Shown: positions 13,426-50,340 of the stretch, in pieces
How the letters are laid out: every line of letters begins with the position of its first letter
Position numbering within the stretch: position 1 is the first letter of the stretch
Source of the DNA: Sinonovacula constricta
Lineage: Eukaryota > Mollusca > Bivalvia > Cardiida > Solecurtidae
NCBI GenBank assembly: GCA_007844125.1
Contig: CM017572.1
Coordinates: forward strand, 27,323,248-27,387,247
DNA: 64,000 bases
Reading direction: 5' to 3'
Notes under the pieces: model-generated
The model's database searches: none
What the model saw: only the letters and a program-made list of their open reading frames with translations
What the model was told of the DNA's origin: nothing
Made by a program: the position numbers and the translations under genes

Positions 13426-15819
13426 AAAAGTGATCGCTGATTCAAATCTGATTCAAAGTCAAGCACGTTACATGCACTTTTTAACATGATTTAAAAAGTA
13501 AAGCTTAATTGGATCATAATCATATAATGAAAATACAATGAGCACCTTGATTACTCAGTCTATCATTGCTCTGACATCAAACAAAATGAGACCATATTAC
13601 AATGAAATAAATATTATGAACAAAACAGTCTTGTCATAAGACAAGTTCTCATTATGTGTATACTATTTACCAAACCGTGCAAAATATTCATTACAACCAG
13701 AAACATGAAACGAAAACATTGAAAGGCCAGAACTGTACAGAGCAGAATGTATATTTTACCGCCTTAAGAAAAATGAAATCAAAATAAGCAAAATAATTTG
13801 ATAAGCAAAAAAAAAAGAACTCAACAAATGTAGTGCGTGTTGTAGGACGTAGTTCCCTTTACAAAACTTAAACAAAACGGAACTACTTTAATATAGTGAT
13901 GAAAACGGTCTATACTTTTGAGTTGAGGTCTGTAGAAAAGAATTCTAAAGTAGTAAACACAATACTTTGAGATTGTATATTAAACTTAGATAAAGATCAA
14001 AACTGGACTTATCGGTAAAATGGGTAGATTATATGTTATTCTGTGATAATATCATTAATTAAACTAATTACTGGTCTCGAATATTTATCATTTGTTTTCT
14101 GTTTCATATTTTCATAAACAATGCATTGATCAGCTTTGCTTGACTTTAATCAGATTTATATATCTATCAGTGTTAAGTACATCATAATTTTGATTCTGGC
14201 AAAGTTTGGTAAAGTATATGTTATTTGCCAACTAATTGTTTAGTATCTTCTTTTTAAATTTGTTTTCAGTAAAAGGTGTAGTGGTATGAATCGGGTTGGC
14301 AAATTTGGTTATGAAAAGAAACTCTTATAAGTTGTACTATGATATGCAAAACAGTTCTTTTGTTAACCTTTTCGGTTGTACTTGCTTAGCAGGCACTTAT
14401 AAAAGAATACAATATTGTACTGTTTAAACAAAATAACTTTGAGACATTCAAATGAATCAAACAATATCCAAATATATCTCTACAGGTTTGATTTATTTTT
14501 ATGATTATTTAATTTTTTATAGTGTTATATATCTACAAATTTAAAAAATTTGAGATTATAAAGAAGGACCCATTTTCTAAAACACTGTCTCAAAGAACTT
14601 GTACGCCTCGGTCATTTAGGATAATGAAATGCAAATGAGCTTCAATTTAACCGAGCGTAAAACCTTAAATAAAAAATATATGATGCATTTTGAAACAAGA
14701 GAGGTTTTGAGAAGGAAAATTTCAATTTATTTTATTTGAAAAATCACATGAGGACCTCGTTTAAACATAAACTCCCTACCTCTGGGTATCTTTCTGAAAC
14801 ATAGAACGCAGGTCATGATTGACTATCTTTACAACAGATCAAACATGTTTGCAAATGTTTAGTAAATCATTGGCAAAATACAAAGATTATGACAATTAAA
14901 GATTGCAGATGCAGATAAGTCAGCTTTAAATGTGAGCGTTGTAATCAAGATGCGGCTCATCTATTGCCTGGTTAAAACATAGTGTTTAGTCATCAACGCA
15001 TATTATTGCACAGCAAATCACACATTATCTTACTTTTAACTCGATGTACCCGATTTTTATGAATTTTAAGTTTCTAACACTTGCTATTATAATTATTATA
15101 ATATAACAACAGTATTCATTTAAGGGTCGCATTATTTTTAACATTTAATAACACTGATAATAGTCCTTTTAACTTCGTCCATGACCATTTATGTTTTATG
15201 TGTATTTCAGGTTCATCGGGCTCTTCATCGGGCTATTCATCGGCCAATTCAGGTAATTATTATGTTTAACGTATTACAATTTGGATGATATAAGATTGTG
15301 CGTCATAAAACGGATTTGTATTTGATTTTTAACCTTATCTTCAAGGAATAACAGCTTTATATGGAACGAGTAATAAATATTGTTTAAAGCAATTACATAC
15401 ATGTTGTAAGGGACAACGAAAAGACATACCTTGAAATTACCATTGCCTTTGCATTTGAACCGATAGTTTATCATGCATGTGTCTTTTGTTTTTTAATAAT
15501 GTTTGCATCAATAAGTGGTCTAAGTTATGGTTATACCTTTAAGACAACTTGAATTGTATTCGCCTGTTTAACTTGGGTTTTTTTTTGTTCAACGATTGTT
15601 ATCACATTCGTTGTCTTAGCTGGAATTTGCAATAGTAATGAATCTGTACATGACTATAACTGTTTGACCTATTCATAAAGTTCAACAAAAACTGGTATAT
15701 ATCCCTGCACAATCACTTGCAAATGTATCGATTTTTACTAATGCAGATCAGAAACAATGTCATCGACACCAGAAATATATAAAACCGACTAATATACTGT
15801 TAAGCTGTTTGCTATATCA
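13426..15819 (+). repeat. Tandem-duplication copy 1 (old, partial)
   Basis: Aligns by eye to 34690-36690 and then to 39050-40260 in copy 3. Shared landmarks are GATTCAAATCTGATTCAAAG, CAGCTTTGCTTGACTTT, TTGCCTGGTTAAAACATAG and GTCATCGACACCAGAAATA. The equivalent of 36.7-39.0 kb is missing, so there are no type A or B cassettes here. It is clearly more diverged than copies 3 and 4 are from each other. Its continuation appears at 26168 after the 10.3-kb insertion. Confidence 0.8.
15211..15252 (+). CDS. Micro-exon (C/D type), 42 bp
   Basis: Acceptor TGTATTTCAG and donor GTAATT. Phase 1-1, encoding SSGSSSGYSSANS after the split codon. It contains an internal TCATCGGGCT repeat, so the exon itself grew by a short tandem repeat. 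Flanking intron text (GTAATTATTATGTTTAAC downstream) is shared with the cassettes at 30865, 32712 and 41411, so they descend from one ancestral exon. Confidence 0.6.
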
Positions 15820-16544
15820 AAGTTGCAGTGCCGACCAGGACAATATCGTATTATGTATAAACCAAAAATAAGCTTCAAACGAATAATAAATATGTAAGGA
15901 AGTTAAGTATTAGTAATTCGATTATATGTGTGTGTAACTTAGCCACATACACGATATTTGATCGTTTTTCATAGACGAAATAATTCTACTTTCACTTTGC
16001 ACGCCGTCATTCGTTGAAAATCGTTAATCCTAATTTGCATAACCTCTGCAAAAATGCCCGTATGTTAATATAAACAATTGCAAAAGCTCCTACCTGTGAC
16101 AGAACTTTTCGTGCCTAACAAAATCGCGTCAAGTAAAATTCGTACCAATACGGGTAACACACACAGCGACACGCCGTTTTGTTTAAAATCAAGTACATGG
16201 CCGGATCCAGGATTATTCAGAGGGTTCTAATTGAGAGAGCACTAGAGGTACTTACCGTGTTACATGGGTCTGGAAGGCATGCTCTCCTAAACAACTTTTG
16301 AAATGTAACAGCTATATGCAAAATCCTCTCCATTACATCCCCCAAAACCTAGCCTGTTTAAGCATGTCGCACGCCGTCAATACATCGTTAGCAGATAAGA
16401 AGCAGGTTGTTGATACCTGTTTGTGTCTCATTCAGATTATTGTTGTCTATATAAATTATAAAGTTGTTTTGTAGCCATGTTGTCCATTTTTTCCCTTAAT
16501 TGTTTCCACAATTTTAATTCCATGGTCATGAAACAAACAAAACA

Positions 16545-16738
16545 CGTTTGTATATTGGGTTGCGTTTATCGTCCCACCAACAGTATTTTAGTTATCAGGA
16601 GACGGTGTCCACTTGAAGCATATATAGTGCTGCCTTCACTGTGTATAGCATGCCGTGAACACCCAGTCACATTAGATCGAACCAGGGGCCTCCCGTGCCT
16701 GAAGCCTACGCTCTACCGATTGCGCTACCAGATCCGGC
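16545..16738 (-). mobile_element. tRNA-derived SINE (shorter copy)
   Basis: Same family as 2321-2637: the plus text has ATCGTCCCACCAACAGTATT, a shared body, then the reverse complement of the B box and A box (GCTCTACCGATTGCGCTACC). An internal segment is deleted relative to the other copy. Confidence 0.8.
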
Positions 16739-17989
16739 AAACAATACACGCATTTAAAATAGGCATATCCATCTGTTTGTTCATGTTACAATATATAAAA
16801 TATATATAATATACAACACCAACATTCAATAGAATAAAAATAAGTTACAGTACTGAAAATCATGAAATTGACAAACGGAACGGAGTGGAAATGGAAATGA
16901 AACGTTTTTCGTTTCCTGTTGAAACGGAAACGGAACGGAGTGGAAATGGAAATGCAACGGAGCGCTACAAACGCTTGAAACGGTTTAAACGGTATAAACG
17001 CTATAACCGGAGCGCTTGGAACGCTAGAAACGGTAGAAACGGAAAAATCGGAATGCTCGTAACGGTAGAGTTATTTTCACTACCGCTTCAAACGTTTCTA
17101 GGTCACCCGATTATTTATAGTAACATTTCAACCGTTTCTTGGTACGAAATAAATTTAAACGAACACAATAACTGGCTTTAATTTATCAACACAAACGCGC
17201 TTTTATATGTACTCTGCAGAAAGAAATAACATAAATTATTATCAAAAATTCGTATTTATCAAACTTGTACATTACAGTTCCGAAACCGCACGAGTTGTCC
17301 AAGTCATCGTGTACCGTCAAAACAGAAACTGCACTAAAAATCACTCCGCACGATAAAACACGCAATTTAACTATAATATTGCGTTTCTGTCGAAACTGAT
17401 GTTTTAATTAATTCCAATGAATAGCTTAACATCCGCCTTGGATCGACATTCTTAGTCTTCATTGTTTGGCATATGAAGATAGTGTGTACACAGCTGTCAT
17501 TACACGTATGCGCGCGCAATGTCGCAGCATTTCCCGAGTTTGAATTTTCGCTAATTACTTTGTAGCTGCATGGTCCGTTCCCGGATCAACTACGCCAATC
17601 ATTTTTGTGTGAACATACTTGCTTAAAGTATTTTTCATTTACAAAGAATGCATTGCGTGGTACAAAATAAAGTTACTTAATGAAATTAAACCTCAACCAA
17701 AAGAAGGTAACACATCTCATATAACACAAAAAACATAAAACGACTACACATAAAACAAACAAACAATGCTATGTATTATTGCAAGGTGTGACCCAATCAA
17801 GAACCAATAACATCCTCCCCGGCACTCAGAGCCAATAACAAGTATGATCCTAAAGTTCAACGTCTGAATAACCATAGATTGCCAAATAGTGCACGTATAC
17901 AATCATCGATTGACAGTTAAATAAAACAACCGTGATAAAAACTTACATCATGATAAATATTAAAGACATAATAATCATTACCGCCATTA

Positions 17990-18235
17990 AATTCACCTGA
18001 TCACACATGATCATCATCAGGATCCCATATTACTTATATAATCACCACTAATCATCATCAAAAGCAGCATCACCGGCATCACGATCTACATCATAATCGT
18101 CATGAGCATCAGCATCACCGTAACCGTTATTACCATTTACATTATAATCATAAACAGCATCGGTATCACCGTCATCATTATCAGCAGAAGCAGCAGTAGC
18201 AGCAGCAGCACCGTCATTCACATCATCATTACTTT
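17990..18235. repeat. ATC/CAT-rich low-complexity tract
   Basis: About 240 bp of imperfect ATC/CAT/AGC trinucleotides inside the nested element. Any open frame here is a by-product of the repeat. Confidence 0.75.
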
Positions 18236-20789
18236 AGTTACAGGGGTATGGATATGTATTTTATTTTATCTTGCCTCTTTGTCAAGCAAAGTTTCTTCTG
18301 CTTCTAATCTTAATTGTTATATATCTTATAATGAACAATGTTGTAAATTTGGACAATAGTATCAAAATTCCTATTTCTAAATGCATAGTTCCCATATGCG
18401 CTGTTACATATATAGGATTAATCGGAATTCGTGGACCGCGATTACGAATCTGCATACAACTTTTGACTTTACTTGACTTGCAACTATTTGAATGAGGTCT
18501 GGCTACGGCTCATTTTCCCATTCATGTCTTGAATGTTCTATGCCAAAATGTGGTCTAATGAGGGCCCTACCGGGTACTTAATTTTTGTACCCATTTAAAG
18601 ATAGAAATATATTAATTTAAAATATATCGTTTTGTAAATTGATATTATGTTTCTCCATGCGCGTGGGTAGGGTTCACGCCATCATAAAGTTCTACTCTAA
18701 TTGAATCACTAATTTTAAGACATGAGCGGACACCCCAACTAATTAAGCTAATTGGCAGTTTTATGACACCTTGTTTGTCTAGTGGACAGGAAGTGTGACC
18801 GTGTTTTGGCGTCTTTTCCACTTCGCAAGAACACATGCATCCTCTATGCAGCTGTGTTTGAAAATGTCACCTTATGGCAGTCGCGTGGTTTATGACCTTC
18901 ACCTTTTAAAGAGCAATATGCATTGACTTACGCGAGGACAACAAAAAGGACAAAACACTAAGGTGCACGATTTCTTTTTTGGCTCATAAAAGGACCTAAC
19001 GCTATATTTAGTAGTACCCACAATGGTGCACACTTTCCCCACCCACTATTTTTTAGTTTAAGAAGAGGAAACGTGGATGTGGGGATTGGGGATTTCTTAT
19101 AGTAAATACTACATTAATTGTCGTGTTTTTTTGTAAATAATGTTATCAAGAGAAGACACATCAAGGAACATAGTCTAATGTATATTTTCATCTCGTGTGT
19201 ATTGCAAATGTATTATTTCAATGGCTCGCCTATTCTTTTGTAGTTAATCCATACTTTAAATATAAATAATACCTTTATAAAAGTGTTTATGATCATTAAA
19301 AGGACTAAAAAGTTTTTGTAAGGACATTTATATAAGTAAAAACATGCGCAGTCTGAAATATTACTACATAGTACAGTTTCCTCCCTCCACTATCATTCCT
19401 TAAGAACTTATATTTATGCCGCGAAGGTAAATCGTCAATAACGTTGCATATTTTTTCATATCACACGCCGTTCGCAGTAGTAGTAGGAACTAGTTTAATG
19501 AGGGTCTACACGCCCTGTTGAGGGCTTTTTCATGACCCCGCCATGTTGCCCATGCATGGCTTAAATGTGTATATTCCGAAAGATATCGCCTAAAGAGGGC
19601 CCTAATTAGGTACCTAGTTTATGTACCCATTTACTGGAAGGATGGTATAATTTTGGTAATTTTTTTATCTTAAAGGGGATTGAGCATGTTTTGAGTGAAT
19701 TCCACTCCCTAATTCCTGGCTCTTTCCCCTGACACTAGGTTCTAATTGGTATTTGTTTATTTATTTTTCACCATAAGAAGGTTCCCTGTTTTCGGCTTAC
19801 CTCTTCCCCTAGCGAAATTGTGAAATAGTGGGGAAGGGGTGCACCTTTTTAGGGACCTGGGTAGCTAATAAGCTTTGGTATTTAAGCAGTAATTGTGGTA
19901 GCTCGTTTAGACCCTAGTGTTTGTTAGGTTTTGATGTCTGGACGCCCGGGGCCCGACCGCCCACTAAACCATCTTTCTTGTCTTACATTTGTAATGTATA
20001 TGCCAAGAAAGAAGTCCCCGGCTGGTGGTATAAGATAATGCTCGCCGTTGTCTACTACTTAATTCTATTACTATTTATACTGGTATACAGTATATTTAGC
20101 GGCCATGATCTTATGGTTTTCCCTATTCTACCACACACTCGATTCACTCTCTCAGGGTCACGCCGTTCACGCGTACTTACCATTTTTAATCCCTAAACAG
20201 TACCCAGCGTTCACACCCTCTCTCTCTTCTAAATGGCAGTTTGAAGACAATTATCGATCGATATCATGTTGCACAGTATTGAGAGAAATAATAGGTCGGT
20301 CAATTTGAAACAAAAACAAATCTTTTCGGCGACTTCAAATGATAGTGACCGGCGATTGTTTCCCAGAATATTCTTTGATGTTGCGGTGTTAGCCAGAGAG
20401 CCCTCCTCTCCAGAAAGAAATTACGCCGCATCTAATGATTTATTTGTTCACCGCATTTATTTGTTACAACCTTGGAGAAATTAAAATCACATTGATATAA
20501 TTAGCGACTTCATGTTATAAGTGCGTGAACAATATTGTTAACAGCCGTTAATTGGCGCTAATATGTGCAAACCGAAAACACAACAACACACACTTGTTTC
20601 TAAGAAAGTTGTTTGTTCTATGAGACTTTATGTATGTGCCTGTTTTCGACAAAACAACATGTTCATGTTTATATGAGATAATCATTTTAACCATGAAATG
20701 TGACTGTAGTGAGTAATACTTATCTAAAATTATTGGATATTACACGTTACTATCAGCGAGACGTTAAATCTAAAGTCCGCCATATAACA

Positions 20790-20930
20790 AATATCGGAAA
20801 GGGGCAAACATTCGCCTTTTTATTTTGACAGTGGGGATGGGGGTAAACGCTGGGCCTTTTTATTTGAACGTCCGGTCTGCACTTATAGGGGCGGGGGGCA
20901 AACGTCCGGGGGCAAGTTTTAAAAAAAATT
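20790..20930. repeat. Short G-rich direct repeats
   Basis: Two to three imperfect copies of a block with GGCAAACNTYCG and CCTTTTTATTT, each including runs of 4-6 G. It stands out in AT-rich surroundings and lies inside the nested element. Function unknown. Confidence 0.4.
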
Positions 20931-22079
20931 GTGTGTGATATCGTCTTGTTTTAAGGTCGGATCACCATTACGCTTTTTTGCGGATTAACACGTCACAGAG
21001 AAGTTAACTTTTTAGGATACTGGGTGTGTGTGGACCATATTTGAAAGTTATTTCTTGTTTGTTTACTCCGGGATATGACGTCTGGCAAAGACAAGTGGGT
21101 AGGCATCTTCTCAATACTGCACTCCCTGAATTTTGAGGATTATTTGCAGGTGCTGGTTGTTAAGGGTATTTTTTGTCTGCAATTTCCCTCCGGGTGACTA
21201 ACGCTGAATATCCTCGTCGCAAACAATCTACTGCCGATTCCTTTATATGTGATGGAAGACTTTTGCCTCTGCCTAGAATGTTTACTTCTTTCGTCATTTT
21301 GCAAACACACCGGAAGTACTTTACCTTTAGAAATTTATTAAACGAAATTTTTAGTCAAAATCGGAACGGAGCGAAACGGAACGCTTGAAACGGTAGAAAC
21401 GGAAGAAACGATAGAAACGCTGGAAGCGTTTGAAATGCAGCGCTGGAAGCGAATAAAACGAAACGGAAACGCAACGGAAGCGGAATGGAAACGGAGCGGC
21501 AAACGCTTCCAACTGAAATGGAAACGAAACGGAGTGGAAACGGGAAAATTGTCAATTTCGTGATTTTCAGTACTGTAAGACAGTTGCTAAAATTTGTTTT
21601 AATTGTCTTATGCACAGTAGGAAATACAATAAGGTGCAGTATCGTTTTACACAAATATGAAATGTCAGTGGCAAGTCCATATATAGTAATGAGCATTACA
21701 AAGTTACAGGTACACATGACAGCAAGTAGCAAGTATACGTCTACATTTCTGTTCATTAAGGAAAAGAAAAAAAAACGTGTACTAGCTTTAAAAAGAGTAC
21801 CGCAAGGCGAAGCAAAATACAACCGTCAATAAAGCAATTTGAAACCAACTGCTGTGCACTCTTGTACAATGCAGTATGGCAAAGTTTTGGAATGCATTCT
21901 GGGTTGATGCAAAAAAACTTTGACATGATTGTGGATTGCCATCTGGGTATCTGAAAAAACATATATAATAACATATAATATAAAAAATATGAAAAATAAC
22001 ATCAAATATACAAAAATACACGAGAGTAATGGCATTTGAGAAGCAAGAGGCATTACTCAAAAAAAAAAAAAAGAAGAGG

Positions 22080-22640
22080 AGAGTGACGGAGCTCTTGTAC
22101 ACTGCACTCTGTTTCAATAACATATATCCACCTATGAAGTTTCAAGTCAATAGCTTTGATAATATAGGAGTATGGTCTAGACAAACAAACCAAAAATTGA
22201 ACTAAGGGTAATAACTCCAAAATCATGAAGTGTACAGTGACGGTTCTTATGCATTGCACTCCATCTAAATAAGATCTATCCACCTGCAAAGTTTCACGTC
22301 AATAGCTTTGATTACATAGGCGGCATGCTCCGAACAAGAAAATTAAACAAAGGGGCATAATTCCAAAATCATGAAGTACAGGGTTATAGTTCCTGTGCAC
22401 TGCACTTCGTTTCAATAAGACCTATCTCTGTAGCAAGCTTCAAGTTAATATTTTTTTAAGAATGTAGTAGATGCTCCGGACAAGAAAATTAAACAAAGGG
22501 CAATGACTCCAGCATCACGAAGTGCAAGGTGATGGTTCCTGTGTACTGCCCTCCGTCTCAATGAGATCTATCTACCTATGAAGTTTCAAGTCAATAGCTG
22601 TAATAGTGTTGGAGTTATGCTCCAGACAAACATCTAGATG
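22080..22640. repeat. Tandem core repeats of about 150 bp
   Basis: Roughly four diverged copies of a unit with AAGTTTCAAGTCAATAGCTT, then a GCTCCGGACAAG-like motif, AATTAAACAAAGG, CCAAAATCATGAAG and a CCTGTGCACTGCACT-like end. Such arrays are typical of mollusc non-autonomous Helitron-like (pearl/Helentron) elements; the class is by resemblance only. It lies inside the 10.3-kb insertion. Confidence 0.65.
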
Positions 22641-22903
22641 CCGCACGCACACCAACCTGCCTGCCAGCCCACCTGCCAAGGGTGTTCCCATAATACATCC
22701 AGTCTTCGATGGGTGTATAAAATGCATAAGTTCCAAAATATAACAGGTACACTTACAAAACAATAAACAAATGAAACTGAAAGAGTATATTAATAATAAC
22801 GCTATGGGTTAAAATAGGTGAAACTGTTAAATCATCAGGAATAAACCAACCAAATTGTTCCTAAGCATATACTTTTCTAATACCACAATGGAGTGGTGGT
22901 GCT

Positions 22904-22932
22904 CCATATATATATATATGCTTATATATATG

Positions 22933-22981
<49 letters not shown>
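22904..22981. repeat. TA microsatellite
   Basis: A run of TA broken by two TATGCTTATA interruptions near its start. Confidence 0.9.
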
Positions 22982-22984
<3 letters not shown>

Positions 22985-23084
22985 CTTTCAACACTAAAAT
23001 AGATTTTTGCCAAAATCCTTGTTGGACATCAAGTCATTGTGAATATGCAGCCATGTTTACAGTTCAAAATATTATGAACATGCT

Positions 23085-23330
23085 TGATAAAGGGACACCC
23101 AAGAAACATGTACACCACATATGAAGGCTCAAGCTCTAGTAGTTTCTGACCAAAAGGCTTTTTGAGTTTTCATATATAGACTTAAATGGAAAATGACCAC
23201 GCACCTGGCAACCAGTTTTTTTTAAACAATCTTTATACAGGGCCACCCAAAGGACATGAATACCAAATATCAAGGCTCTAGCTCTTGCAGTTACTGACAG
23301 GAAGATTTTCTAAGTTTTCCATATTGCGGC
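23085..23330. repeat. Two-copy direct repeat of about 156 bp
   Basis: Copies start near 23087 and 23243, sharing CACCCAA, CATG, ACC, ATATGAAGGCTC-like and AGCTCTNGNAGTT motifs. Probably more core-repeat material of the same or a related element. Confidence 0.5.
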
Positions 23331-23479
23331 ATAAGCTCGTGTGAGCTAAAAAGGTACTTTTTCTACTTTGATAAAAAAGTGCACCTGCAGGTAGACTTTT
23401 AATAAATGACTCTAGACTAAAATTGAATGTGAGGAGGTCATTAAACTGACCTGATGTATATGGGTGTTTCAAACAATAT

Positions 23480-25884
23480 CATCTTTTCTCAAACATTTCA
23501 AAAATATCTAATGGATACATATCTCAACTATCTTGGAATACTGGTGCCAAATAGAGTAACTACTCCTTAAATCAAGCATTTCTATCATAGATAGAGGCTT
23601 CATTTTTATTCTATCAGTCAGTCAGGACTATAATCAGGACTATAGGATACTTCACAACAACACTCCAGTGTAATGATAATGTTTCTTCTCATTGCTGGAT
23701 ATAGCACCCATATGCTTATTTTCTTTTTCCACATTCCATTTAATCTGTAAAATAACATTTCATTTTAAGTACATTTTTAGCTGGCAAAAAAAACTATATT
23801 ATCATAATATTTTCAAGTTTTAAGTCCTAAATGGTTTTAGACTTAGACTCCTAAGGAGTACAGTCACAGACAAGTTGATCCTGTTACTCACTGGGCACTC
23901 ACTGTGTGGCTTAAAGTCCATTTAGAGCAAGGACCAGATCTATAATAGCTGGATATATCTTAAATGACCACATTGTGTTGCTGCTTCATTACTTTGGTTC
24001 ATCCCACTTGTTCATAGTCACTTGGACTACAAGGTCTTCTAAGGTCTAACATTTTATATAAGAAGTTGTCTTTTGGTAAGTCAAAGTATTTACTATGTAT
24101 AGCATCAGGTATTTTCTATCTAGAAACATCACTGGTTTTGGCAGGAAGTGAATAATTTATAATTAATATCATAAAATAGTTTTCATATGAGATGCTACAA
24201 AGGTGCAAGTCGAAATCTTCTATGCCTGCATTATTTCTACAATGTATGAACATAAGATATATCTGGATGGTCTGGAGTAAGTATAATATGAATGGGTCTG
24301 CTATTATGTTATGGTGTCCATTTCATACATTTCCCAAATGAAGGCAGAACTATATGCCCAAAGTCTGGGATAATTTACAAGATAGTAGGTGGATGATTAT
24401 TGATTAATTAAACACAATTTTATTTTTTACACAAGTTTTAAAAGTAAAAGAAAATGTTCATGTTGGTTTTGCTGACTCGCAGTTCTATTTTTGTCACAAA
24501 TGGGGAAATATATTTATAATTTTTGGACGTGTTGATCGCCTCATTATCAATTTTTCACTTAAGTAGTTGTAGTTGTCCATGTTTGAAGAAGATGGTGGCG
24601 CATTCACTGTATCAACATGTTGGACATCCTGGTGTCTGTGCTGAGAATGAAAGAAACGCAGTGAAGGCCATACTAGTCTGGTTTAAGTAGAAACTTCCTG
24701 CAGGTTACCTAAATGTTGTTGGTGGGATGCTAAACACAATACTTTACAAGCAACAAAATATATAATTACCTTATTACATGTTATTTAGTTGCCTTCGACA
24801 ACATTAACAACTCACACCCTGGTGTCGAAGTAAAACGATAAACCAGCATAGGCTTCAAATGGTGTTATCGTTTGGGACCATGCAGCTGAAGGGAACAACA
24901 TATGATGTAAATAATAGAATGGACCAAGACAGAAAATTGTTATTATTTTTATGTCACCTACTAATCTTATCCTTTACATTTTTATACAATAAATTTATTT
25001 GAAATGATGATGTAAGTAATTGTCAGGATATGCATTTTTTTATTCTAAACAATGTTGGTTAGTTTAGTGTATGCACTTGACAAAACATGCCCTGCACGTT
25101 ATCCACCCTTCATAAGTTCATATATTTTAAATTATTGCATCATTTAGGACCAATCAGTGTATAGTTTTTTTTTTCTGATAAATAATTTTCTAGTTATGTG
25201 ATGAAAGTATAATATATATAGAGTCAATACAAACTATGCACAAGGTATCTCATATATGCCTGAATCTAATCAATTCTAAAAACATGTGTAAACTTCTATA
25301 TATGGTAAAACGTTGATCATTCAAATTTTGTTAGCACTGTTGATAAATATCCCATGTTGATAACTGGGTACGAACCGTGTTGAGTCCAATTACTAAAATG
25401 CGTATAAACTATAATAACATTCATATATATATGCGACAAAATACTGTATAGATAACAGGGAATTAAAATATTATAGTACAGTATTGGCATGGTTATAAAA
25501 TAACTCTTAAGTACGTTAAATTTCTAATAATGCTTGTACACGTAGGGCCTACCTAAAATATTTAAGCAGGAACTGGGGTAAATCTCTGTCCACATTCAGT
25601 TCAACTTCCATTGCCATCGTCGTTCAATGCATGTGTTGAGACAATAAATATAGTGATACAATCATGTAGTCTTCTTTGTTCTCCTTCTTTTTTCTTTTAG
25701 TTTATTTATTTACTATGGGCTACATTCCTTCTTTGCGTGTTATCGACTGATGTTTACCGCGATCACTCCAATTTCAACGTTTTAATGTACATACGTATGT
25801 GCTGCGGCCCCAGATATATAACAAGTTTTCATTTAAAGTCCTTTTTTTTTAAGTTGTATGACAATGTCGAAGCTATCCGTGCTT
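23480..25884. other. Interior of the 10.3-kb insertion, nothing recognised
   Basis: AT-rich, no credible open frame, no domain and no clear repeat structure. Confidence 0.4.
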
Positions 25885-26017
25885 AATTTGAGTAGGTCCA
25901 TGACTGTTTACATAATTATTATTCATACATCACGTGGTTGCTTTTCCGCCATTTTCCGATCAAAACCAGGAAGCGGTCGTAAGAAAAATGTCTGAAAATC
26001 AACGACCTACTTAAATT
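25885..26017. repeat. Small inverted-repeat element (possible MITE)
   Basis: AATTTGAGTAGGT at 25885 and ACCTACTTAAATT at 26005 are inverted with one mismatch, enclosing about 107 bp. No clear target duplication. Confidence 0.35.
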
Positions 26018-29304: not shown

Positions 29305-29420
<116 letters not shown>

Positions 29421-29558: not shown

Positions 29559-29644
29559 GTATGTATATATTTCATTTGTATATCTACAATCTTAAAAGAG
29601 GGTAGTTCAAGCGTGCCAAGAAAAAAACGTTTCTTTGAACCGAA

Positions 29645-37815: not shown

Positions 37816-37869
37816 ATTTAAAACCCGGCGAAAGTAGACATCTACACAGACCACGTTTTTGGAAATTAA
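37816..37869 (+). CDS. Micro-exon type A2, 54 bp
   Basis: Acceptor CCTTTTTAG, donor GTATGT, phase 1-1. Encodes DLKPGESRHLHRPRFWKL, a basic stretch. The only intact type A cassette: A1 is broken by a microsatellite and the copy 4 version is deleted. Confidence 0.5.
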
Positions 37870-39139: not shown

Positions 39140-39169
39140 TTTCAGTAAAGTTGACCAAGCTCTTGAAAG
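39140..39169 (+). CDS. Micro-exon type C2, 30 bp
   Basis: Acceptor TTCTATCAG, donor GTAGGT, phase 1-1. Encodes VSVKLTKLLK. Compared with C1 it has many changes in 30 bp, nearly all altering the peptide. Confidence 0.5.
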
Positions 39170-40280
39170 GTAGGTATTTGGATAGCATTTATGTAGTTAG
39201 TTTGAACATTTGCTTCGACAAAAAATTGACGGTCACACGTTGTATTATCTTTTTATAAATCCCCTGTTTTCTGCCGTCACAGTTACACAGAGTTACAATT
39301 AGGCGTGGATCGAAATATGCGATATTTATATTGAGTCAAATACTTTTAATTTCATGTGCTATGAGCTTTCACACCTGGATATAAGTAAACGGAACTAAAT
39401 GTTCCTTTTTACAAAAATGAAGTGCCGAAGATTCTGTACTGGTGGGACACTTTATCATTTCATTCGACCTTGAACACTTGGATGTCATATTACACACAAG
39501 GTGAAACGGCAACGTTTACCGCTTTTAAAGGTAAATCGGAAAAAGTTAAAACCCGTTTTTTGAGCGCTCCATCTTTGCACTTCCTGAAGGTTTCGTAGGC
39601 AAACGGTGTAAATTAAAATATGTATTTTTATCTTTCTTTTACTACTCTGTTGTATTGAATTTATTTTTATGAAACGCTGCTATCAGGCCTGCTGTAAACT
39701 TAGAAAACTTAGAGTTATTGCAGGATCGATCGATGTTGTTATTATTCAGTGTTTTTCAATGTTATGTCTATGTTGATAGTCATGATAATGCTTTTGCTAT
39801 TGCAAAACTATATTTATAGAGCTGGTTAATTTATTTCAAGTTTGTTCTTCGAATAGATCGAAGTCTACTTATTTACTGCAATAGATCAGATAAAAGCAAC
39901 TTGCTAAAGATATAAACATTATAATTAGCCACAGTCGTAAATTATTTAATAACTGTGTTAATACTAAATTTTGACGCACAAGTTTAATAAAAGATGCATT
40001 TAATATAAACTTGTAGTTCTTGCCAACACCTGAATGCCTGTTTAAGTTGGCTTTTCATTTGTTCGACGATTTTTATCACATTCGTGGTCTTAGCTGGAAT
40101 TTGGAATACGTAATGAATGTGTACATGACTCTAACTGTTTGACCTGTTTATAAAGTTCAACAAAAACTGGTATATATCCCTGCATAATCAGTTGCAAATG
40201 TATCGATTTTTACTAATGCAGATCAGAAACAATGTCATCGACACCAGAAATATATAAAACCGACTAATAAGGTCAATATA

Positions 40281-40720
40281 TAGGGAATAATAAGTCAGTA
40301 GCAGATATATATATTTTTTTTTTTTTTTTTAATATTCCGTATTTATCTGTAGAAATAAATACAACATCTGACACGATAATAATTAGCTAACGAAATAGCT
40401 CAGTAGGACAACGTGTCTGTACTTCGCGTTGGAAAGTAGCCGACCCGGTTCAAATCCACCTGAAGACAGACAACTTTTTTTTTCAAAACTTTTTTTTATT
40501 AAATCCACGTAAATTATTATAGGTATTAAATCTGAATTGACAGATTTTCAACAAAATGAAAACAAAATCAATTATAATGAATACATTAAACTTGACGAAA
40601 CGTTTTTTTAAAAGTAGTTCCTTGACCTTACATATTCATACACCTACTGACCTAATAAACCTAAGGTTATTCGACCCCCCTTTATTAGGTCAGTAGAGGG
40701 CGTAATGACGGGATAACTAT
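40281..40720 (+). mobile_element. tRNA-derived SINE with 3' hairpin, copy 3 only
   Basis: Contains an A box (TAGCTCAGTAGGACAACGTG, 40396) and a B box (GGTTCAAATCC, 40447-40457) at tRNA spacing, then a long AT-rich body. It ends with an inverted repeat CTACTGACCTAATAAA / TTTATTAGGTCAGTAG near 40648-40695. The site is empty in copies 2 and 4, so it inserted after duplication. GTCAGTAG text also occurs at the 5' start. Confidence 0.75.
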
Positions 40721-41410
40721 TAAACGGTTTGCCATATTACGTAAATATATCCGTCTTAACAAAACACTATACATGTCTAAAACAGCATCCTGCACCGTCA
40801 GCAGTGTGATGATCTTTAGCATTAATGGTGTAAATATGAACATTTTACACATACGAAGATGTACATAGAAAATGTTTTTTTAATGTATTGTTCGTGATAT
40901 TTAAGGGTGTTTCCAATAAAGAAAAAAAGAAAGCAACACCGTTTAATATGTACCACCTTTGGGCGCTTTCAGATATGAATAACCATATGATGTCTATTTA
41001 ATGATTGAATCTCATTTTGGTGACGTGCATGCTTTTTCAAAAGCTAATCCCGTAGGTGCATTGAACAAAGCGCATTATCAACGAAAACAAGTGAATGCGT
41101 ATTGAAAAGGTATTGGTCTTAGGAGTTGACAATGCAGTGGCATCAAATATATACAATCTGCACTCATATTATTATTATATGACTTTGATTTCTTTTCCAA
41201 ATAAAAATATTAGGGTTATAAAACTACTCATGTGAATTTCAGCCAATGTCAAGGAGCTGGAAATACCAACATGTTAATGCCACAGGCATTTCTTTATATT
41301 AGGATTTAAATGTTACCCAGATAACAGTTACGTTAGTTTGTGTAACATTTACAGATTACTGTCCTTTGAACTACTGTAATATTATTTTATTTTTATTTTA
41401 TTAACTTCAG

Positions 41411-41434
41411 ATCAATCGAAGGATGCCGATTCAG
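41411..41434 (+). CDS. Micro-exon type D2, 24 bp
   Basis: Acceptor TTAACTTCAG, donor GTAATT, phase 1-1. Encodes DQSKDADS; one base differs from D1 (Pro to Gln). Confidence 0.5.
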
Positions 41435-42081
41435 GTAATTATTATGTTTAACATGTTATAATTTGGTGTTTGCCATCGGTTTTATAACAATTGTTAACAA
41501 AAACACAGAAAATACATACATTTTTATAAGCAAGCTGACATAAGCGTTAAATTCGGGATTTTCAAATTCTCTTTTGTTTTCTTACACATTATTTTTATTA
41601 CCGTCCTGTGTGACTGAAAGGAAAGACGATGAAAATTTTCATTCCTTCCCAATGCAAGATTTGTTCGCCTCGGTCAATTAGGAGAATGTAATGCAAAGAG
41701 ATTCAATTTAACCGGTTGGAAGTTCTTAATTGAAAAATACCTAATGCAAAAATGTTCTAAATTATCTCTATTTTTCTGTGTTTTATTAATTATCTTCAAA
41801 GAGTTTTTTTTTGCAGAGAGCAAAGGACTAGATAGCAAGAAAAACACATTACGGTGATGTAGATGTATTTTATCAATAACAAACCAAATACGAGAATGAT
41901 ACGGCCTACATACAGCTCAAATATCAATGAGAGTAGGTATCTCTTGAAAGTTGAAAATGCACCGACAAACGTACATCAAACATACATGCATTTAATTTCG
42001 TCCAATAATAAAGTACGGACCCTTTAAGTTATGATCACGTTCAGAAATTAACATTTGATTTCTTTCCTTTTTTATATTCAG

Positions 42082-42120
42082 CTCCCCCCGACGGATTAGG
42101 ACAACACTCTGTCCGATCAA
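42082..42120 (+). CDS. Micro-exon type B3, 39 bp
   Basis: Acceptor TATATTCAG, donor GTATGT, phase 1-1. Encodes APPDGLGQHSVRS. Confidence 0.55.
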
Positions 42121-44490
42121 GTATGTATATTTCATTTGTACATCTACAATCTGCAAGGAGTGCCTAGAAAAAATGTTTCATTGAACCCACGGGCAATTTC
42201 GTGGTGTATTGTATTTATTTTATAATTAAGTGTTTTCTTAATAAGATTACTTCTTATTCCATTTTCGTTACAAACTTTATTATTAACAAGCATGTCAACA
42301 TCAATATAAAAACAACGAAGTTTATTTATGAACGGGATTGAAAATACATCTGTTGTGATGGTGAGTGGTACTACACCTTTGGTTTCGGATTACAACTATC
42401 GTTTTGGTCTAGATTTCGATAAATGTACTGTTTATCTGACATAATATGATACACGACCATTTACAGCATGAGGATAAATATGTATATACCAAATTCTAGA
42501 GCAAGTAACTATATATTTAACAAATCTAATCGGCTAGCATTTTCTAAACAGCTTCTGTCCATGATACAACATGCAACAACTATTTAAAATATCAATAATC
42601 CTTAGCTTATACTAGGAGAGGACAACATTATTCAAGTTTTATCATCACTGGAAGCTATTCCGTAACTGCACTAGTTAACTTTTATCCGTGAAAGTCTGTT
42701 CAATTATTTTGCTAAAGTCTCAGTTGTTTTTGCCTGGACCATATTTAGAGATAAATGTTCATTTAAGGGTCGCATTAAATAATAATAAAAATATATCAAA
42801 ACTGTAGAGATATATTTTGATATTGTTCAATGGTCGATCAATTGTGACGTTGGAGACATAAAAATGATATGAATGGTTTTCTAAAGAAGGAACATTATCA
42901 GAAAGAGAATGTCAAGTTACACAAGGATGCAATAACAAACTGGTTGTCACAAAATAACTATAAGTGGACAAATATGGAAACTCTAGATTAAATTTGCAGC
43001 CAGTTTGAGTTTTATGAACTATTGATAAAAACACACACAAAAATACATATACATTTTAACTAAGTAAGGTGATATTAGCGTTTTATTTATGAGTATCAAG
43101 ATCTATTTCCTTACACATGAATTAGTTTTATTACCAACCTGTGTGACTGTTAACACGGACCATGACTATTTTCATTCTTGCCCAATGTAAGATTTGATAT
43201 TTCAATGAAAAGGTGTAAATGATTGAAAATTCTTAAAGGAAAAATATCGGATACATTTTGAGAAAAAAACATGTTTGTGAAGGGGAATTACAATTTATTT
43301 GAATTGGACCATCACAATAAGACGTTGTGTTAATATAAAGACCTCACCTCTGGATATCTTTTTGCAACGTAGAAAGTAGTTAATGGTTGACCATCTTTTC
43401 ACAAGATCAAAAATGATTGCTGATTCAAATCTGATTCAAAGTCAAGCAGGTTACATGCACTTTTTAACATGATTTGAAAAGTAAAGCTTAATTGGATCAT
43501 AATCTTATAATGAACAAAACAATAAGCACCTTGATTACTCAGTCTATCATTGCTCTGACATCAAACAAAATGAGATCCTATGACAAGGAAGTAAATATTA
43601 TGAACAAAACAGTCTTGTCATAAGACAAGTTTTAATTATGTGTATAATATTTACCAAACTGTGCAAAATATCATTACAACCAGAAACATGAAACGAAAAT
43701 ATTCAAAAGCCAGAACTGTCCAGATCAGGGGGTATATTTTACCGCCTTTGGCAAAATGAAAGCAAAATAATTTGAAAAGAAAGAAAAGAAAAAAAAGAAC
43801 ACTTTAGAGTAAAGAACTTAAAAAAATGTAGTGAGTGTTGTAAGACGTAGCTCCCTTTACAAAACTTAAACAAAACTGAACTACTTTAATATAGTGATGA
43901 AAACGGTCTATACTTGCGAGTTGAGGTATGTAGAAAAGAATTCTAAAGTAGGAAACAAAAAACTTAGAGATTGTATATTATACTTTGATCATGACCAAAA
44001 CTGGTGGTATCGGTAAAATGGGTAGATTAAATGTTATTCTGTCATAAAATCATTAATTAAACTAATTAATGGTCTCCAATATTTATCATTTGTTTCTGGT
44101 CTATTTTCTTAAACAATGTATTGATCAGCTTCGTTTGACTTTAATCAATTCTTATACTTGATTGCTTAAACTATCAGTTTTAAGTACATCATAATTTTGA
44201 TTCTGGCAAATTTGGTAAAGTATATGTTATTTGCCAAATGATTGCTGAGTATATTCTTTTTAAATATGTTTTCAGTGCAAGGTGAAGTGATATGAATCGG
44301 GTTGTCAAATTTGGTAATGAAAAGAAACTTTTATAAGTCCTACTATGATATAGAAATCAGTTCTTTTGATAACCTTTTCGGCTGTACTTGCTTAGCAGGC
44401 ACTTATAAAAGAATACAATATTGTACTGTTTAAACAATATAACTTTGAGACATTCAAATGAATCAAACAATATCCAAACATATCTCTACA

Positions 44491-44801
<311 letters not shown>

Positions 44802-44813
44802 TATCCATTATCT

Positions 44814-44888
<75 letters not shown>

Positions 44889-44896
44889 AAGTAGTA
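44814..44896. repeat. TAG/AGT trinucleotide microsatellite
   Basis: About 25 TAG units ending GAAGTAGTA, next to the TA run. Absent from copy 3. Confidence 0.95.
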
Positions 44897-47105
44897 TATT
44901 GTATGGTTTGGCATCGTCATGATTTTTTTTACAAAGTAAGTAACACGGCATTAAAAAACATCAAAATGATTTATAAAACAACGTGAAGACATTTGCCCTT
45001 TTGCCTCAAGGTTGGTACATTTCGCTCACAATTACCGTATATTATGTTTCTGTCTATGAGATCGTTTCTCTCTCTCTCTTTACCTACCTATCCATCTCTT
45101 CCTTTCTATTTTGCCATGTCTTTTTTTCTTTCCGTCTTCTCCGGAGTCTGTCTCACTCACCCACCAACCCCTATAATCTCGATTACCATCCCACCTCTCT
45201 TCGTATCATCCAATGTTTTGGGTAATCTTTACCAAGACTCCTGCTGTACCGTGAATTTGAAAAAAAATAAAATGAATTGATGAACCTCATAATTAAATAC
45301 TAAATACTATATGCCTTTGTGTTAGATAAATGGAAAAAAAAACACGTAAAACTTTGAACCTTATTAAGGCAAAATATTAATGTGTTATAAATTTCTCAGA
45401 CTTATAGTATACATATATGTAGATAATGTAATAGAACTTGTATGCCTTTTGATGATCAGATGTTTGAAAACTTGCATGTCTGTACTTTACATGTTGTGAA
45501 TAGAAATAAAAATAATGATTGCTACGATTTAGTAAATAATTGACTCAATACAAAGTCTATGACAATTTAAGCAGAACAAGCTGATTACCAATTTACATTG
45601 TCAAGGCAAAAAGTACAGATACAGATCAGTCAGCTCCAAAAGTGAGCTTTGTGTTCAAGGTGTATCTCATGCGTTGCCTGGTTAAAACATAGTGTTATGT
45701 CATCAACGCAAAATCGCCTATTACATTACTTAAAACTGGAGGTACCAGATTTTTATGATTTTTTTTATATTCTAACACTTGCAATTTCATACTTAAATAT
45801 ATATATCATAACTGCTTTTTCAAGTTTTAATCCCTGATTTCACGAAATTTACATAACGGTTTCCAAAGGTATACTGTTTTTTTTTTCTGCCTCGGTAATT
45901 TTAGGTAGTTTTATCTCATTGTTTTGATTAAACCAATCCACGTGGAAACTCCTTATACATTTCTGGTAAACAGTCTATCTAGCGTTTCATTCAACATACT
46001 TAACGCAACTTACCGATTTTTTTCTTATTTTACACTATTAAAAAAAGCATGAGAGACAGATATTTACACGTATGACTGTAGCTATTTCAATATTCTCTGA
46101 CAAATGATTTTGGTTGTTGATGACTCCAGACACATGTATGTGTGGAACAACTTGCGCTAGAAACAAAAGTCACCTAAACGACCTATTTACATTGTCGTTT
46201 TTCTTTCACTGGTTCTCTTACATATGCAGTGGCAGGCCGAGGCGTCAGCTTATGTCTGCATTTACGTTTCGATTTATATTAGCATTTACATGTGCATTTA
46301 TGTTTTCTAGGTTAAATTTGCATTAAAAAAATTCATGATGTTTTCTATTTATTTATTATGCCTCTTGCTAATAAGATTCCGGATTATTCCATTTTTGTTA
46401 CAAACTATATTACTAACAAACATATCATCATCCATCGAAGAACAACGCATTCTGTTTATGAACGGGATAGAAAATACATCTGTTGTGGTGGTAACAAAGA
46501 TTTGGTTTTGGAATACAATTGTCATTTTGATCACACAGCTACGGTTTTTATTTTTGAATTTTTTCAGTTTTTATATCAATATTGATCGACAGTTAATATT
46601 GAAATCGTAAGTTAAAGACGACTAATTGATTGGCAGGTCCATTTATTATTTGTTTGTCGTAATATGATACACGATAATTTATAGCATGATAATTCTAAAA
46701 TAAAATAATTATATATTTAACAAATGCAGTAGGCTAATATTTCATTTCCATTATACCATTTTTCTAATCAGCTTCCGTCCATGATACATGCAATAACTGT
46801 TTACAATATCAAAAAACCTTGGCTAATGCTAGGACAAGATAACATTATTTCACTTTTACGGTCTATATTCTCTCAATATTTTTACATCGCTTAAACATAG
46901 TTTTAGCATCACCAAAAGCTATTCAGTAACTGCACTAGTTAACTGTTATCCGTGAATCTCTGGTCACTTATTTCTTAACGTCTCAGTTGTCTTTGCTTGG
47001 TCCATATTTGGAAAAAAATAAGTTCGCCTTATTTTTTAACATTTTACATCAATGATCAATGTCCTTTGAACTTCGACCAGGCTCTTTTATTTTTATTTGT
47101 TTCAG

Positions 47106-47135
47106 TTTCAGAAACAGCGATTTATAGTTAGTTTT
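47106..47135 (+). pseudogene. Type C cassette, broken
   Basis: Acceptor TTTGTTTCAG and the first bases TTTCAGAAA are kept, but a deletion removes the 3' half and the donor. In phase it runs into a stop (AGT TAG). Confidence 0.6.
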
Positions 47136-48866
47136 AACGTTTGCTTAGACAAACAATTGACGGTCACACGTTATATTATTATTTTATAAATCCCCTGTTT
47201 TCTGCCGTCACAGTGACACAGAGTTACAATTAGGCGTGGATCGAAATATGCGATATTTATATTGAGTCAAATACTTTTGATTTCATGTGCTATGAGCTTT
47301 CACACCTGGATATAAGTAAACGGAACTAAATGTTCCTTTTTACAAAAATGAAGTGCCGAGGATTCTGTACTGGTGGGACACTTTATCATTTCATTCGACC
47401 TTGAACACTTAGATGTCATATTACACACAAGGTGAAAAGGCAACGTTTACCGCTTTTAAAGGTAAATCGGAAAAAGTTAAAATCCGTTTTGTTGAGCGCT
47501 CCATCCTTGCACTTCCTGAAGGTTTCGTAGGCAAACGGTGTAAATTAAAATATGTATTTTTATCTTTCTTTTACTACTCTGTTGTATTGAATTTATTTTT
47601 TTGAAACGCTGCTATCAGGCCTTCTGTAAACTTAGAAAACTTAGAGTTATTGCAGGATCGATCGATGTTGTTATTATTCAGTGTTTTTCAATGTTATGTC
47701 TATGTTGATAGTCATGATAATGCTTTTGCTATTGCAAAACTATATTTATAGAGCTGGTTAATTTATTTCAAGTTTGTTCTTCGAATAGATCGAAGTCTAC
47801 TTATTTACTGCAATAGATCAGATAAAAGCAACTTGCTAAAGATACAAACATTATAATTAGCCACAGTCGCGAATTATTCAATAACTGTGTTAATACTAAA
47901 TTTTGACGCACAAGTTTAATAAAAGATGCATTTAATATAAAATTATAGTTCTTGCCAACACGAGAATGCCTGTTTAAGTTGGCTTTTCATTTGTTCGACG
48001 ATTTTTATCACATTCGTGGTCTTAGCTGGAATTTGGAATACGTAATGAATGTGTACATGACTCTAACTGTTTGACCTGTTCATAAAGTTCAACAAAAACT
48101 GGTATATATCCCTGCATAATCAGTTGCAAATGTATCGATTTTTACTAATGCAGATCAGAAACAATGTCATCGACACCAGAAATATATAAAACCGACTAAT
48201 ACGGTCACTAAATTGTTAAACTGTTTACCATATTAAATAAATATATTTGTCTTAACAAAACATTATACATGTCTAAAACAGCATCCTGCACCGTCAGCAG
48301 TGTGATGATCTTTAGCATTAATGGTGTAAATATGAACATTTTACACATACGAAGATGTACATAGGAAATGCTTATTTATTGTATTGTTCATGATATTTAA
48401 GGGTGTTTAAAAATAGAAAAAGAAACAAAGAAACACCGTTTAATATGTACCACCGATTGCAGCTTTCAGATATGAATAACCAAGTCTCGATGATGTCTAT
48501 TTAATGATTGAATCTCATTTTGATGACGTGCATGCTTTTTAAAAGCTAATCCCGTAGGTGCATTTAACGAAGCGCATTATCAACGAAAATAAGTGAATGC
48601 GTTTTGAAAAGGTATTGATCTTAGGAGTTGACAATGCAGTGGCATCAAATATATACAATCTGCACTCATATTATAGAACTACTCATGTGAATTTAAGCCA
48701 AAGTCCAGGAGCTGGAAATACCAACATGTTAATGCTACAGGCATTTCTTTATATTGGGATTTAAATGTTACCCAGATAACACTTACGTTAGTTTGTGTAA
48801 CATTAACAGATTACTGTCCTTTGAACTACTGTGATAATCTTTTATTTTTATTTTATCAACTTCATG

Positions 48867-48889
48867 TCCATCGAAGGATACCGATTCAG
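48867..48889 (+). pseudogene. Type D cassette with lost acceptor
   Basis: The body TCCATCGAAGGATACCGATT and the GTAATT donor are kept, but the acceptor AG of D1/D2 (CTTCAG) reads CTTCATG, so the exon cannot be spliced at the ancestral site. Confidence 0.65.
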
Positions 48890-49180
48890 GTAATTATTAT
48901 GTTTAACAAAAACACAGAAAATACATACATTTTTATAAGCAAGCTGATATAAGCGTTAAATTCGGGATTTTCAAATTCTGTTTTCTTACACATTTTTTTA
49001 CCGTCCTGTGTGACTGTAAGGGAAGACGATGACTTTTCATTCCTTCCCAATGCAAGATTTGTTCGCCTCGGTCCATTAGGAGAATGCAATGCAAAGAGCT
49101 TCAATTTAACCGGTTGGAAGTTCTTAAATGAAAAATACCTAATGCAAAAATGTTCTAAATTATCCCTATTTATCTGTGTC

Positions 49181-50006
49181 CATATTGCCGACTGACCGTT
49201 CCAAGGCGGTAACTGTTGGGTTTGCTCTTTTTGTTAAATAACTCATCACATATTTGTTCTTACTTTTCTCTTGGCTTGCATGTGAAATTCCTTTGTTCTG
49301 TGCCTTTTCGGAGTTTGGTATATGTTGCAATGCTCATTGGACTTTGTCATATATTCTTATTCATGATCACAACAATGTTACTTGTGCAGTGTGGCGGTCG
49401 TAAAAAATCTCCCCGTGCATGTAATCTGTGTTGTCATTTAATTCATCCTATAAGGATTGTTACGTGTATTTCCTCTGATGGACATTGGACTTTGGTTCTT
49501 CAATTCCATCTTCACATGAACAGAATGCTACAACCATTTATTCGTCTCTGGTCATGTTTGTTCATGATTCAGAAAGTTAATTTCTTTTATATTCAATCAT
49601 CTTTGTGTAGTTTTTCAAATCGAAATAATACCATATTCTTTTCTCAACATTATGTGGACATTATTTTTCAATGACGTCACTACTTTCGTCATAACTTATA
49701 GAAAATATCAGCGCTTGGACATTTTGTATTCAATCGATCGTTTTCTTATCATTGCTTGCATTTGAGAAACTCGCCAGAAAGTGTGAGGTTAGAGCTCTGT
49801 AAAACCGGTTTAAGCACCCCAGTTGGTCCATATTGCCGACTGACCGTTTCAAGGCGGTAACTGTCGGGTTTGCTCTTTTCGTTAAATGACTCATCACAAA
49901 TTTGTTCTTACTTTTCTCTTGGCTTGCATGTGAAATACCTTTGTTCTGTGCCTTTTCGGAGTTTGGTATATGTTGCAATTCTCATAGGACTTTGTCATAT
50001 ATTCTT
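49181..50006 (-). mobile_element. 830-bp insertion with about 185-bp direct-repeat ends
   Basis: The block TCCATATTGCCGACTGACCG...GGACTTTGTCATATATTCT occurs at 49181-49365 and again at 49827-50006, with about 460 bp between. Copy 3 lacks it at the equivalent of about 41786, so the boundaries are clear. Related minus-strand copies lie at 59433-59960 and 61269-61442. The structure resembles a very small LTR-type element (TRIM-like), but ends are not TG...CA and no primer-binding site was recognised. Confidence 0.6.
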
Positions 50007-50301
50007 TTTAATTATCTATAAAGAGTTTTTTTTGCAGACAGCAAAGGACTAGATAGCAAGAAAAACACATTACGGCGATGTAGATGTATTTTATCAATAA
50101 TGAACCAAATATGAGAATGATAGGACTACATACAGCTCAAATATCAATGAGAGTAGGCATCTCTTAAAAGTTGAAAATGCACCGACAAACGTACATCAGA
50201 CATACATACATTTAATTTCGTACAATAATAAAGTACGGACCCTTTAAGTTATGATCACGTTCAGAAATTAACATTTAATTTCTTTCCTTTTTTATATTTA
50301 G

Positions 50302-50340
50302 TTCCCCCCGACGGATTGGGACAACACTCTGTCCGATCAA
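50302..50340 (+). CDS. Micro-exon type B4, 39 bp
   Basis: Acceptor TATATTTAG, donor GTATGT, phase 1-1. Encodes VPPDGLGQHSVRS. The last B cassette of the array. Confidence 0.5.

Follow-up and report, generated by a model that had tools for sequence, protein, structure and literature searches.

The question raised by this locus is whether an array of alternatively used micro-exons is being built within a single intron of an otherwise ordinary gene. The locus lies in a 64,000-nt stretch of DNA of the bivalve Sinonovacula constricta (GenBank:GCA_007844125.1, contig CM017572.1, positions 27,323,248 to 27,387,247 of the forward strand; hereafter the window, numbered from its first letter), where four exons of a predicted protease gene, designated e1, e2, p1 and p2, stand on the two sides of a 41.3-kb intron containing ten short candidate exons (cassettes). 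The reading towards which we lean is that facultative micro-exons, symmetric at phase 1-1, form a birth-and-death array in this intron, and that a predicted linker in front of a Trypsin_2 protease would be varied by it.

Ten cassettes in the intron of a predicted protease gene

It had been predicted that ten micro-exons of 24-54 nt, all multiples of three and all phase 1-1, are present in this intron. Examination of the ten starts revealed an AG before and a GT after every one of them, lengths as predicted (Table 1), and phase 1 as the sole phase open in all ten, as compared with six of ten for phase 0 and eight of ten for phase 2. Since e2 and p1 are both in phase 1 at the intron, the reading frame is kept whichever of the cassettes are spliced in or left out. 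With all ten predicted cassettes included, no stop was encountered from e1 to the stop codon of the protease and 123 residues were added, each cassette contributing 8-18 codons that were mostly hydrophilic as judged by eye. The original prediction also held that no junction creates a stop; this is true of the listed exons, but joining 29511 to the inner acceptor of B1 at 30871 gives TAA, so that the statement holds only for the outer acceptor at 30865. Both B1-type cassettes (30865 and 39140) carry a pair of acceptors separated by 6 nt, the inner of which aligns with the acceptor of B0 and B2. Homology of the flanks separated the cassettes into families A and B, with five members each (named accordingly in Table 1); the original prediction had listed types A, B and C/D. 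Length differences between copies were multiples of three, being 9 nt in A and 18 nt in B.

The four larger exons are all on the + strand and are separated by phase-1 introns. When p1 and p2 were joined at the phase-1 junction, the product matched Trypsin_2 (PF13365) with an E value of 2.7e-7 and 31.8 bits, above the curated cut-off of 27.6 and over the full domain (profile positions 1-142 of 144), while the p2 frame by itself gave E 0.025 and the p1 frame by itself had no match in Pfam. The match of the joined exons supports the splice between p1 and p2 as well as the assignment to the trypsin-like serine proteases, a predicted domain of this kind being encoded by the two exons. The sequence motifs TAGH, ADVGVL and GSSGSP were read in the predicted protease, and we take these to be candidate sites of the His, Asp and Ser triad. 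The array had been placed between N-terminal domains and the protease; its position, the Trypsin_2 match and the phase-1 end of e2 agree with this, but the N-terminal domains have no counterpart in Pfam, as neither e1 nor e2 gave a significant match there. The single-sequence AlphaFold model of e2 had a predicted local distance difference test score of 38.7, too poor for use, and was discarded. A sequence search of the PDB returned a single match (E 0.47 and 0.74), and scans for tRNA genes and Rfam families gave no matches.

Table 1. Positions in the window of the predicted exons, cassettes, decayed copies and tandem units
Feature	Position	Strand	Description	Rank among 602 candidates
Exon e1	10120..10386	+	267 nt, phase 1-1, open frame, AG/GT; N-terminal part	
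Exon e2	10540..11154	+	615 nt, phase 1-1; last base G, in phase 1	
Array-bearing intron	11155..52474	+	41.3 kb, between e2 and p1	
Exon p1	52475..52690	+	first half of trypsin-like domain (TAGH); starts in phase 1	
Exon p2	54464..54900	+	second half of trypsin-like domain (GSSGSP); stop codon at end	
Cassette B0	15211..15252	+	42 nt; encodes SSGSSSGYSSANS	4
Cassette A1	29511..29558	+	48 nt; PSYGKHLSRSRFSRS	10
Cassette B1	30865..30894	+	30 nt; SEKMTELFT; 24 nt if the second acceptor (30871) is used	6 and 7
Cassette B2	32712..32735	+	24 nt; PSKDADS	13
Cassette A2	33369..33407	+	39 nt; PPDGLGQHSDQS	8
Cassette A1'	37816..37869	+	54 nt; weakest of the ten	27
Cassette B1'	39140..39169	+	30 nt (24 nt from 39146); SVKLTKLLK	1 and 3
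Cassette B2'	41411..41434	+	24 nt; QSKDADS	12
Cassette A2'	42082..42120	+	39 nt; PPDGLGQHSVRS	2
Cassette A2''	50302..50340	+	39 nt; PPDGLGQHSVRS; sole member of the ten in U3	15
Dead cassette A0	29276..29304	+	tandem acceptors kept; donor side replaced by (TA)n; remaining GT choices tested out of frame	
Deleted family-A copy	46228-46328		first A copy of U3	
Remnant B1''	47106..47126	+	acceptors 47106/47112 kept; ancestral donor deleted	
Dead cassette B2''	48866..48889	+	acceptor AG lost, donor intact	
Partial unit U0	13413..15821	+	from self-comparison; one B cassette, no A cassette found	
Unit U1	26383..34210	+	from self-comparison	
Unit U2	34211..42915	+	from self-comparison	
Unit U3	42916..51254	+	from self-comparison; 3 of 4 A/B cassettes lost or damaged	

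The intron was scanned, blind to the list of cassettes, for AG..GT windows of 24-54 nt that were multiples of three and open in phase 1, and the 602 candidates were ranked with an untrained splice-site score matrix. Nine of the ten cassettes were within the top 15, with acceptor scores from 0.8 to 5.8 over the ten, and the best score on the reverse strand in any phase was 5.5 as compared with 8.7 in the scan. In 60 first-order Markov resamplings, candidates scoring at least 4.6 numbered 2.05 on average (maximum 6) versus 14 in the real intron, and those scoring at least 6.3 numbered 0.78 (maximum 3) versus 10. The 14 comprised 8 listed cassettes, 2 alternative-acceptor forms and 4 others, cassette 50302 falling just under the threshold at 4.56, and the 10 comprised 6 listed cassettes, 2 alternative-acceptor forms and 2 others. 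As the members of a family are related by descent, the counts are not independent of one another. On the same scale, the acceptors of e1 and e2 scored 2.6 and 3.0 and those of p1 and p2 -1.4 and -1.8, while the donor of e2 was good at 3.6. The low score of the p1 acceptor leaves its exact start uncertain.

Tandem units, decayed copies and divergence of the cassettes

Self-comparison revealed that the intron contains three tandem units of 7.8-8.7 kb (U1-U3) and a partial fourth (U0), in agreement with the predicted origin by tandem intron duplication. The overall divergence was 15% for U1-U2, 18% for U1-U3 and 8.5% for U2-U3, and it was both layered and mosaic, with most 500-column windows of the alignments at 1-8% or 10-16% and a few, corresponding to non-aligning stretches between units, at 45-58%. 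Within the units, the surroundings of A and B were 68-83% identical to one another. The pattern fits a history in which about 4 kb was duplicated long ago, stretches of 8-9 kb were duplicated afterwards, and exchange came later. From the mosaic divergence we infer unequal exchange, which would expand and contract the array. A haplotype duplicate in the assembly may lie behind the most similar stretches, and in part behind that of U1/U2 with 96% identity.

In addition to the ten intact cassettes, four decayed copies absent from the original prediction were found (Table 1), bringing the recognised positions to 14. The donor side of 29276 was replaced by the TA repeat at 29306-29417, so that microsatellite growth appears as one route of cassette death. 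In remnant B1'', a weak in-frame GTTAGT permits an exon of 21 or 15 nt (ranks 33 and 30 of 990). The presence of two adjacent A copies in U1 (29276 and 29511) versus one in U2 (37816) is another sign of gain or loss. The latter, A1', has lost its ancestral acceptor, and an AG 6 nt upstream serves instead with the multiple of three kept; on its upstream side it pairs with the dead A0. Treatment of 37816 as the orthologue of 29511 (odds ratio 1.86, p=0.016; nonsynonymous to synonymous changes 18:2) was dropped, as the upstream side pairs better with 29276.

Several further features were noticed within the units. The stretch 33800-34072, after cassette 33369, is a 68% copy of that upstream of cassette 30865 and ends before the exon would begin; it is possibly a further lost B copy. 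An insertion of about 830 bp (49178-50016) with terminal direct repeats of 191 bp (94% identical) is located between 48866 and 50302 in U3, is absent from the matching point of U1 (33071/33073), and has inverted relatives at 59417-59962 and 61246-61439; it looks like a small element of the long terminal repeat type. Besides the repeat at 29306-29417, long TA/AT repeats are present inside the array at 44651-44798 and 50780-50889.

Conservation of splice sites in pairs of copies was set against windows, and the windows as good as the site were counted. In some of the old pairs, splice signals were kept better than the sequence around them. Between A1 and A2, none of 20 acceptor bases and none of 8 donor bases differed, versus 23% in the flanks, and B0, B1 and B2 shared an identical donor run of 16-20 nt versus flanks differing by 23-31%. 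As good as the acceptor were 0 of 235 windows for A1-A2, 10 of 234 for A1-A2' and 16 of 233 for A1-A2''; for the B donors the counts were 6/183, 1/182 and 6/184. The donor of A1'-A2'' (37816-50302) also stood out in the gapped test, with 9 of 179 windows as good.

The cassette bodies, by comparison, were no more conserved than the introns and diverged at or above the rate of the flanks. Over the three live U1-U2 pairs, differences were present at 11 of 93 exon bases and at 44 of 696 flank bases (odds ratio 2.03, p=0.078); with the dead-live pair 29276-37816 added, the odds ratio was 2.69 (p=0.0009). Because this last value leans on a dead copy that is free to drift beside a TA repeat, a faster change of exon bodies than of flanks is suggested only. 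The live U1-U2 pairs had nine nonsynonymous and two synonymous changes (A2-A2' 3:1, B1-B1' 5:1, B2-B2' 1:0), too few for a test. Such divergence could arise under loose or diversifying selection on the predicted peptide or with no selection on it, and does not decide between them. A further hint may be seen in the lengths, as the cassettes changed by multiples of three, versus 19 of 107 insertions or deletions of up to 60 nt between the units (15/69 and 4/38).

Competing readings of the array

Layered tandem duplication of the surrounding intron has multiplied cassette families A and B. Under the reading towards which we lean, the spliceosome would include some subset of them in different transcripts. 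The protein would then possess a linker ranging from 0 to about 123 residues, hydrophilic and probably disordered, between the N-terminal region and the C-terminal Trypsin_2-type serine protease, and this linker might change how the protease is spaced, cleaved or docked. The array may in this way provide many predicted linker variants, as the original prediction had proposed.

Several results weigh against this reading. When frame was ignored, other AG..GT pairs scored equally high (e.g., 38593, 11556 and 20832), so that splice scores alone are not decisive, and other in-frame candidates were also within the top 20 of the scan, in which cassette 37816 ranked as low as 27. The B acceptors were not unusually conserved overall (53/235, 8/253 and 52/242 windows as good), the gapped donor tests were not significant for A1-A2 and A1-A2' (68 and 64 of 186) or for A1-A2'' (30/175), and the acceptor of A1'-A2'' was poor (191/234). 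Recent copies hold their sites through descent alone and thus provide little independent evidence, there being two families with few old branches. Homologues were found neither for the 510-residue model lacking cassettes (none at E 0.001 among 7996 scored candidates sharing most words) nor for the protease alone (none at E 0.01 among 210 candidates). Finally, decay has affected four of the 14 positions, and unit U3 alone accounts for three of these.

These broken copies, together with exon bodies diverging at or above the flank rate, favour a different view, namely that the intron was duplicated for non-coding reasons and the cassettes are relict pseudo-exons, cryptic or decaying, and included rarely if at all. 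Skipping is common for micro-exons that lie in long introns and have moderate donors, which points in the same direction. We nevertheless hold it rather unlikely, since all ten intact copies, including those changed in length, keep the multiple of three and phase 1, and since the A1-A2 acceptor and the B donors have outlasted their flanks.

The opposite extreme would be a hypervariable linker generator, with splice signals under purifying selection, bodies evolving faster than introns, up to about 2^10 combinations per allele and a copy number varying between individuals, acting as a diversifier in host defence or substrate targeting; this seems quite doubtful to us. Most cassettes might also be near-constitutive and encode one long, repetitive linker with little choice of isoform. 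Full inclusion does leave an open frame with 123 added residues, and nine of the ten site pairs outscore nearly all other in-frame candidates, with acceptors that outscore those of p1 and p2; however, the three copies lost in U3 and the lack of an A cassette in U0 imply little constraint on the set, and we regard a fixed linker as very unlikely.

It would be highly improbable, in our estimate, that e1-e2 and p1-p2 belong to two genes, the second with its own promoter, in which case the array would not stand between domains of a single protein. The 41-kb intron, the weak p1 acceptor (-1.4) and the joint architecture, seen in no relative by the homologue searches (7996 and 210 candidates), could be so explained, but the donor of e2 is good (3.6), both e2 and p1 are in phase 1 at the intron, and this phase is the sole one open across all ten intervening cassettes. 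Mutually exclusive choice through competing RNA pairings, as in insect Dscam1, is suggested by the homologous tandem cassettes but is scarcely credible, as symmetric cassettes of 3n length keep the frame without exclusivity and no clear docking/selector complementarity was detected in a crude test (61 hits versus 38-61 in ten shuffled controls, the real count being inflated because homologous flanks are counted repeatedly).

If the cassettes are used, as in the facultative array that we favour, the locus would represent a micro-exon array caught during construction, with copies diverged by a few per cent to about 30%, and would record in one place in what order the duplications occurred, what became of every copy (still intact, with a shifted acceptor, with its donor lost, or deleted) and how fast exons changed relative to introns. 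It would also indicate that diversification of this kind can arise in an ordinary multidomain protease gene through plain tandem intron duplication. If they are unused, it would be a clean natural example of intron duplication seeding in-frame cryptic exons.

Related systems and neighbouring elements

Micro-exon genes (MEGs) of schistosomes and tapeworms possess runs of tiny symmetric exons of 3n length that can be skipped without a frame shift (PMC4015677, PMC4350168, PMC7653826), and their ratio of nonsynonymous to synonymous substitution rates (dN/dS) is raised (PMC4350168). The present array is similar in its series of small symmetric 3n exons, here predicted, but differs in that 1) the micro-exons make up 369 nt and stand between larger exons in a gene for a protease, 2) the micro-exons were copied together with their introns, and 3) use in RNA has been reported for MEGs, whereas here it is predicted. 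An operational definition calls for micro-exons shorter than 70 nt and of 3n length, in genes with at least 7 exons, at least half of them micro-exons, and a run of at least 4 (PMC7653826). The ten predicted exons are all of 24-54 nt and 3n, and they form one run of ten and make up 10 of the 14 exons of the partial model, a fraction that the 5' end of the gene could change. If the predicted exons are real, the array thus fits the structural definition used for tapeworms, in a different kind of protein. In schistosome MEGs, micro-exons form most of the coding region, up to 75% (PMC4350168, PMC4015677), versus 369 of 1904 nt in our partial model; the locus is therefore classed as working like a MEG and not as a member. 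Schistosome MEGs are further characterised by a signal peptide, a small secreted product and variants that arise through differential splicing.

The closest architectural analogue found is SmVAL6 of Schistosoma mansoni, a VAL domain gene with a stretch of small symmetric exons that are alternatively used and for which recombination with a MEG is the hypothesised origin (PMC4350168, PMC4015677). There too a conventional domain gene is joined to a micro-exon stretch, but the gene here is for a protease rather than a VAL protein and the array grew inside one intron. In Dscam1 of arthropods, exons encode segments of immunoglobulin regions (PMC4015677) and exon clusters are spliced in a mutually exclusive manner (PMC8042237); the tandem candidate alternative exons in one gene are a shared feature, whereas the predicted linkers here have 8-18 residues and no clear docking/selector signal. 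Among molluscs, the oyster alternative oxidase CvAOX has a tandemly duplicated exon 10 that is alternatively spliced (PMC5589949), a likeness in tandem exon duplication, with alternative splicing seen in CvAOX; there, it is one duplicated 3' exon that is alternatively used, with no micro-exon array. A literature search limited to titles and abstract openings, with most subscription papers outside it, returned no such array in a protease gene.

Other candidate exons were noticed in the intron. A 33-nt element, of 3n length and open in phase 1, recurs in each of the three units (32972-33004, 41682-41714 and 49080-49112; ranks 16, 19 and 14 of 602), with acceptor scores of 4.2, 1.6 and 4.2 and weak donors (GTTGG) at -0.1, 0.8 and 0.8; in its older copies, near 26.7 kb and 14.6 kb, either the AG or the GT is absent. 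It is possibly a third cassette family, kept as a candidate and not accepted, and might be the C/D type of the original prediction. Also not accepted were 38593-38616 (24 nt, rank 9; a 43-nt form scores higher, and the sites are weak in its copies at 30318 and 46568), 37169-37210 (rank 5; no AG in U3, truncated in U1), 36568-36603 and 45606-45641 (weak acceptor), and 29554-29601 (rank 11), which overlaps cassette 29511.

Upstream of e1, two phase-1 exons ending in a stop (8336-8978) encode an OTU-like protein, in which the position that we presume to be that of the catalytic Cys reads Ser (DDNSLF). No Pfam match was obtained for this exon pair, and in the PDB, OTUD3 was matched with E 0.25 only and an unrelated enzyme with 0.7, so that the idea of an inactive OTU relative is no more than a lead. 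In-frame splicing to e1 would also be possible for the exon at 8336-8806, whose end is in phase 1. Transposon pieces surround the gene at 4379-4780 and 7171-7971 (- strand) and at 62922-63422 (+ strand), with matches to an integrase core (2.8e-9), a reverse-transcriptase-type endonuclease (1.9e-6) and a reverse transcriptase fragment (2.1e-6, just below the cut-off). The first 1,400 bp of the window (1-1400) are a satellite of 31-bp units (45.7 copies, 93% matches) that runs to a gap of 100 N at 1401-1500.

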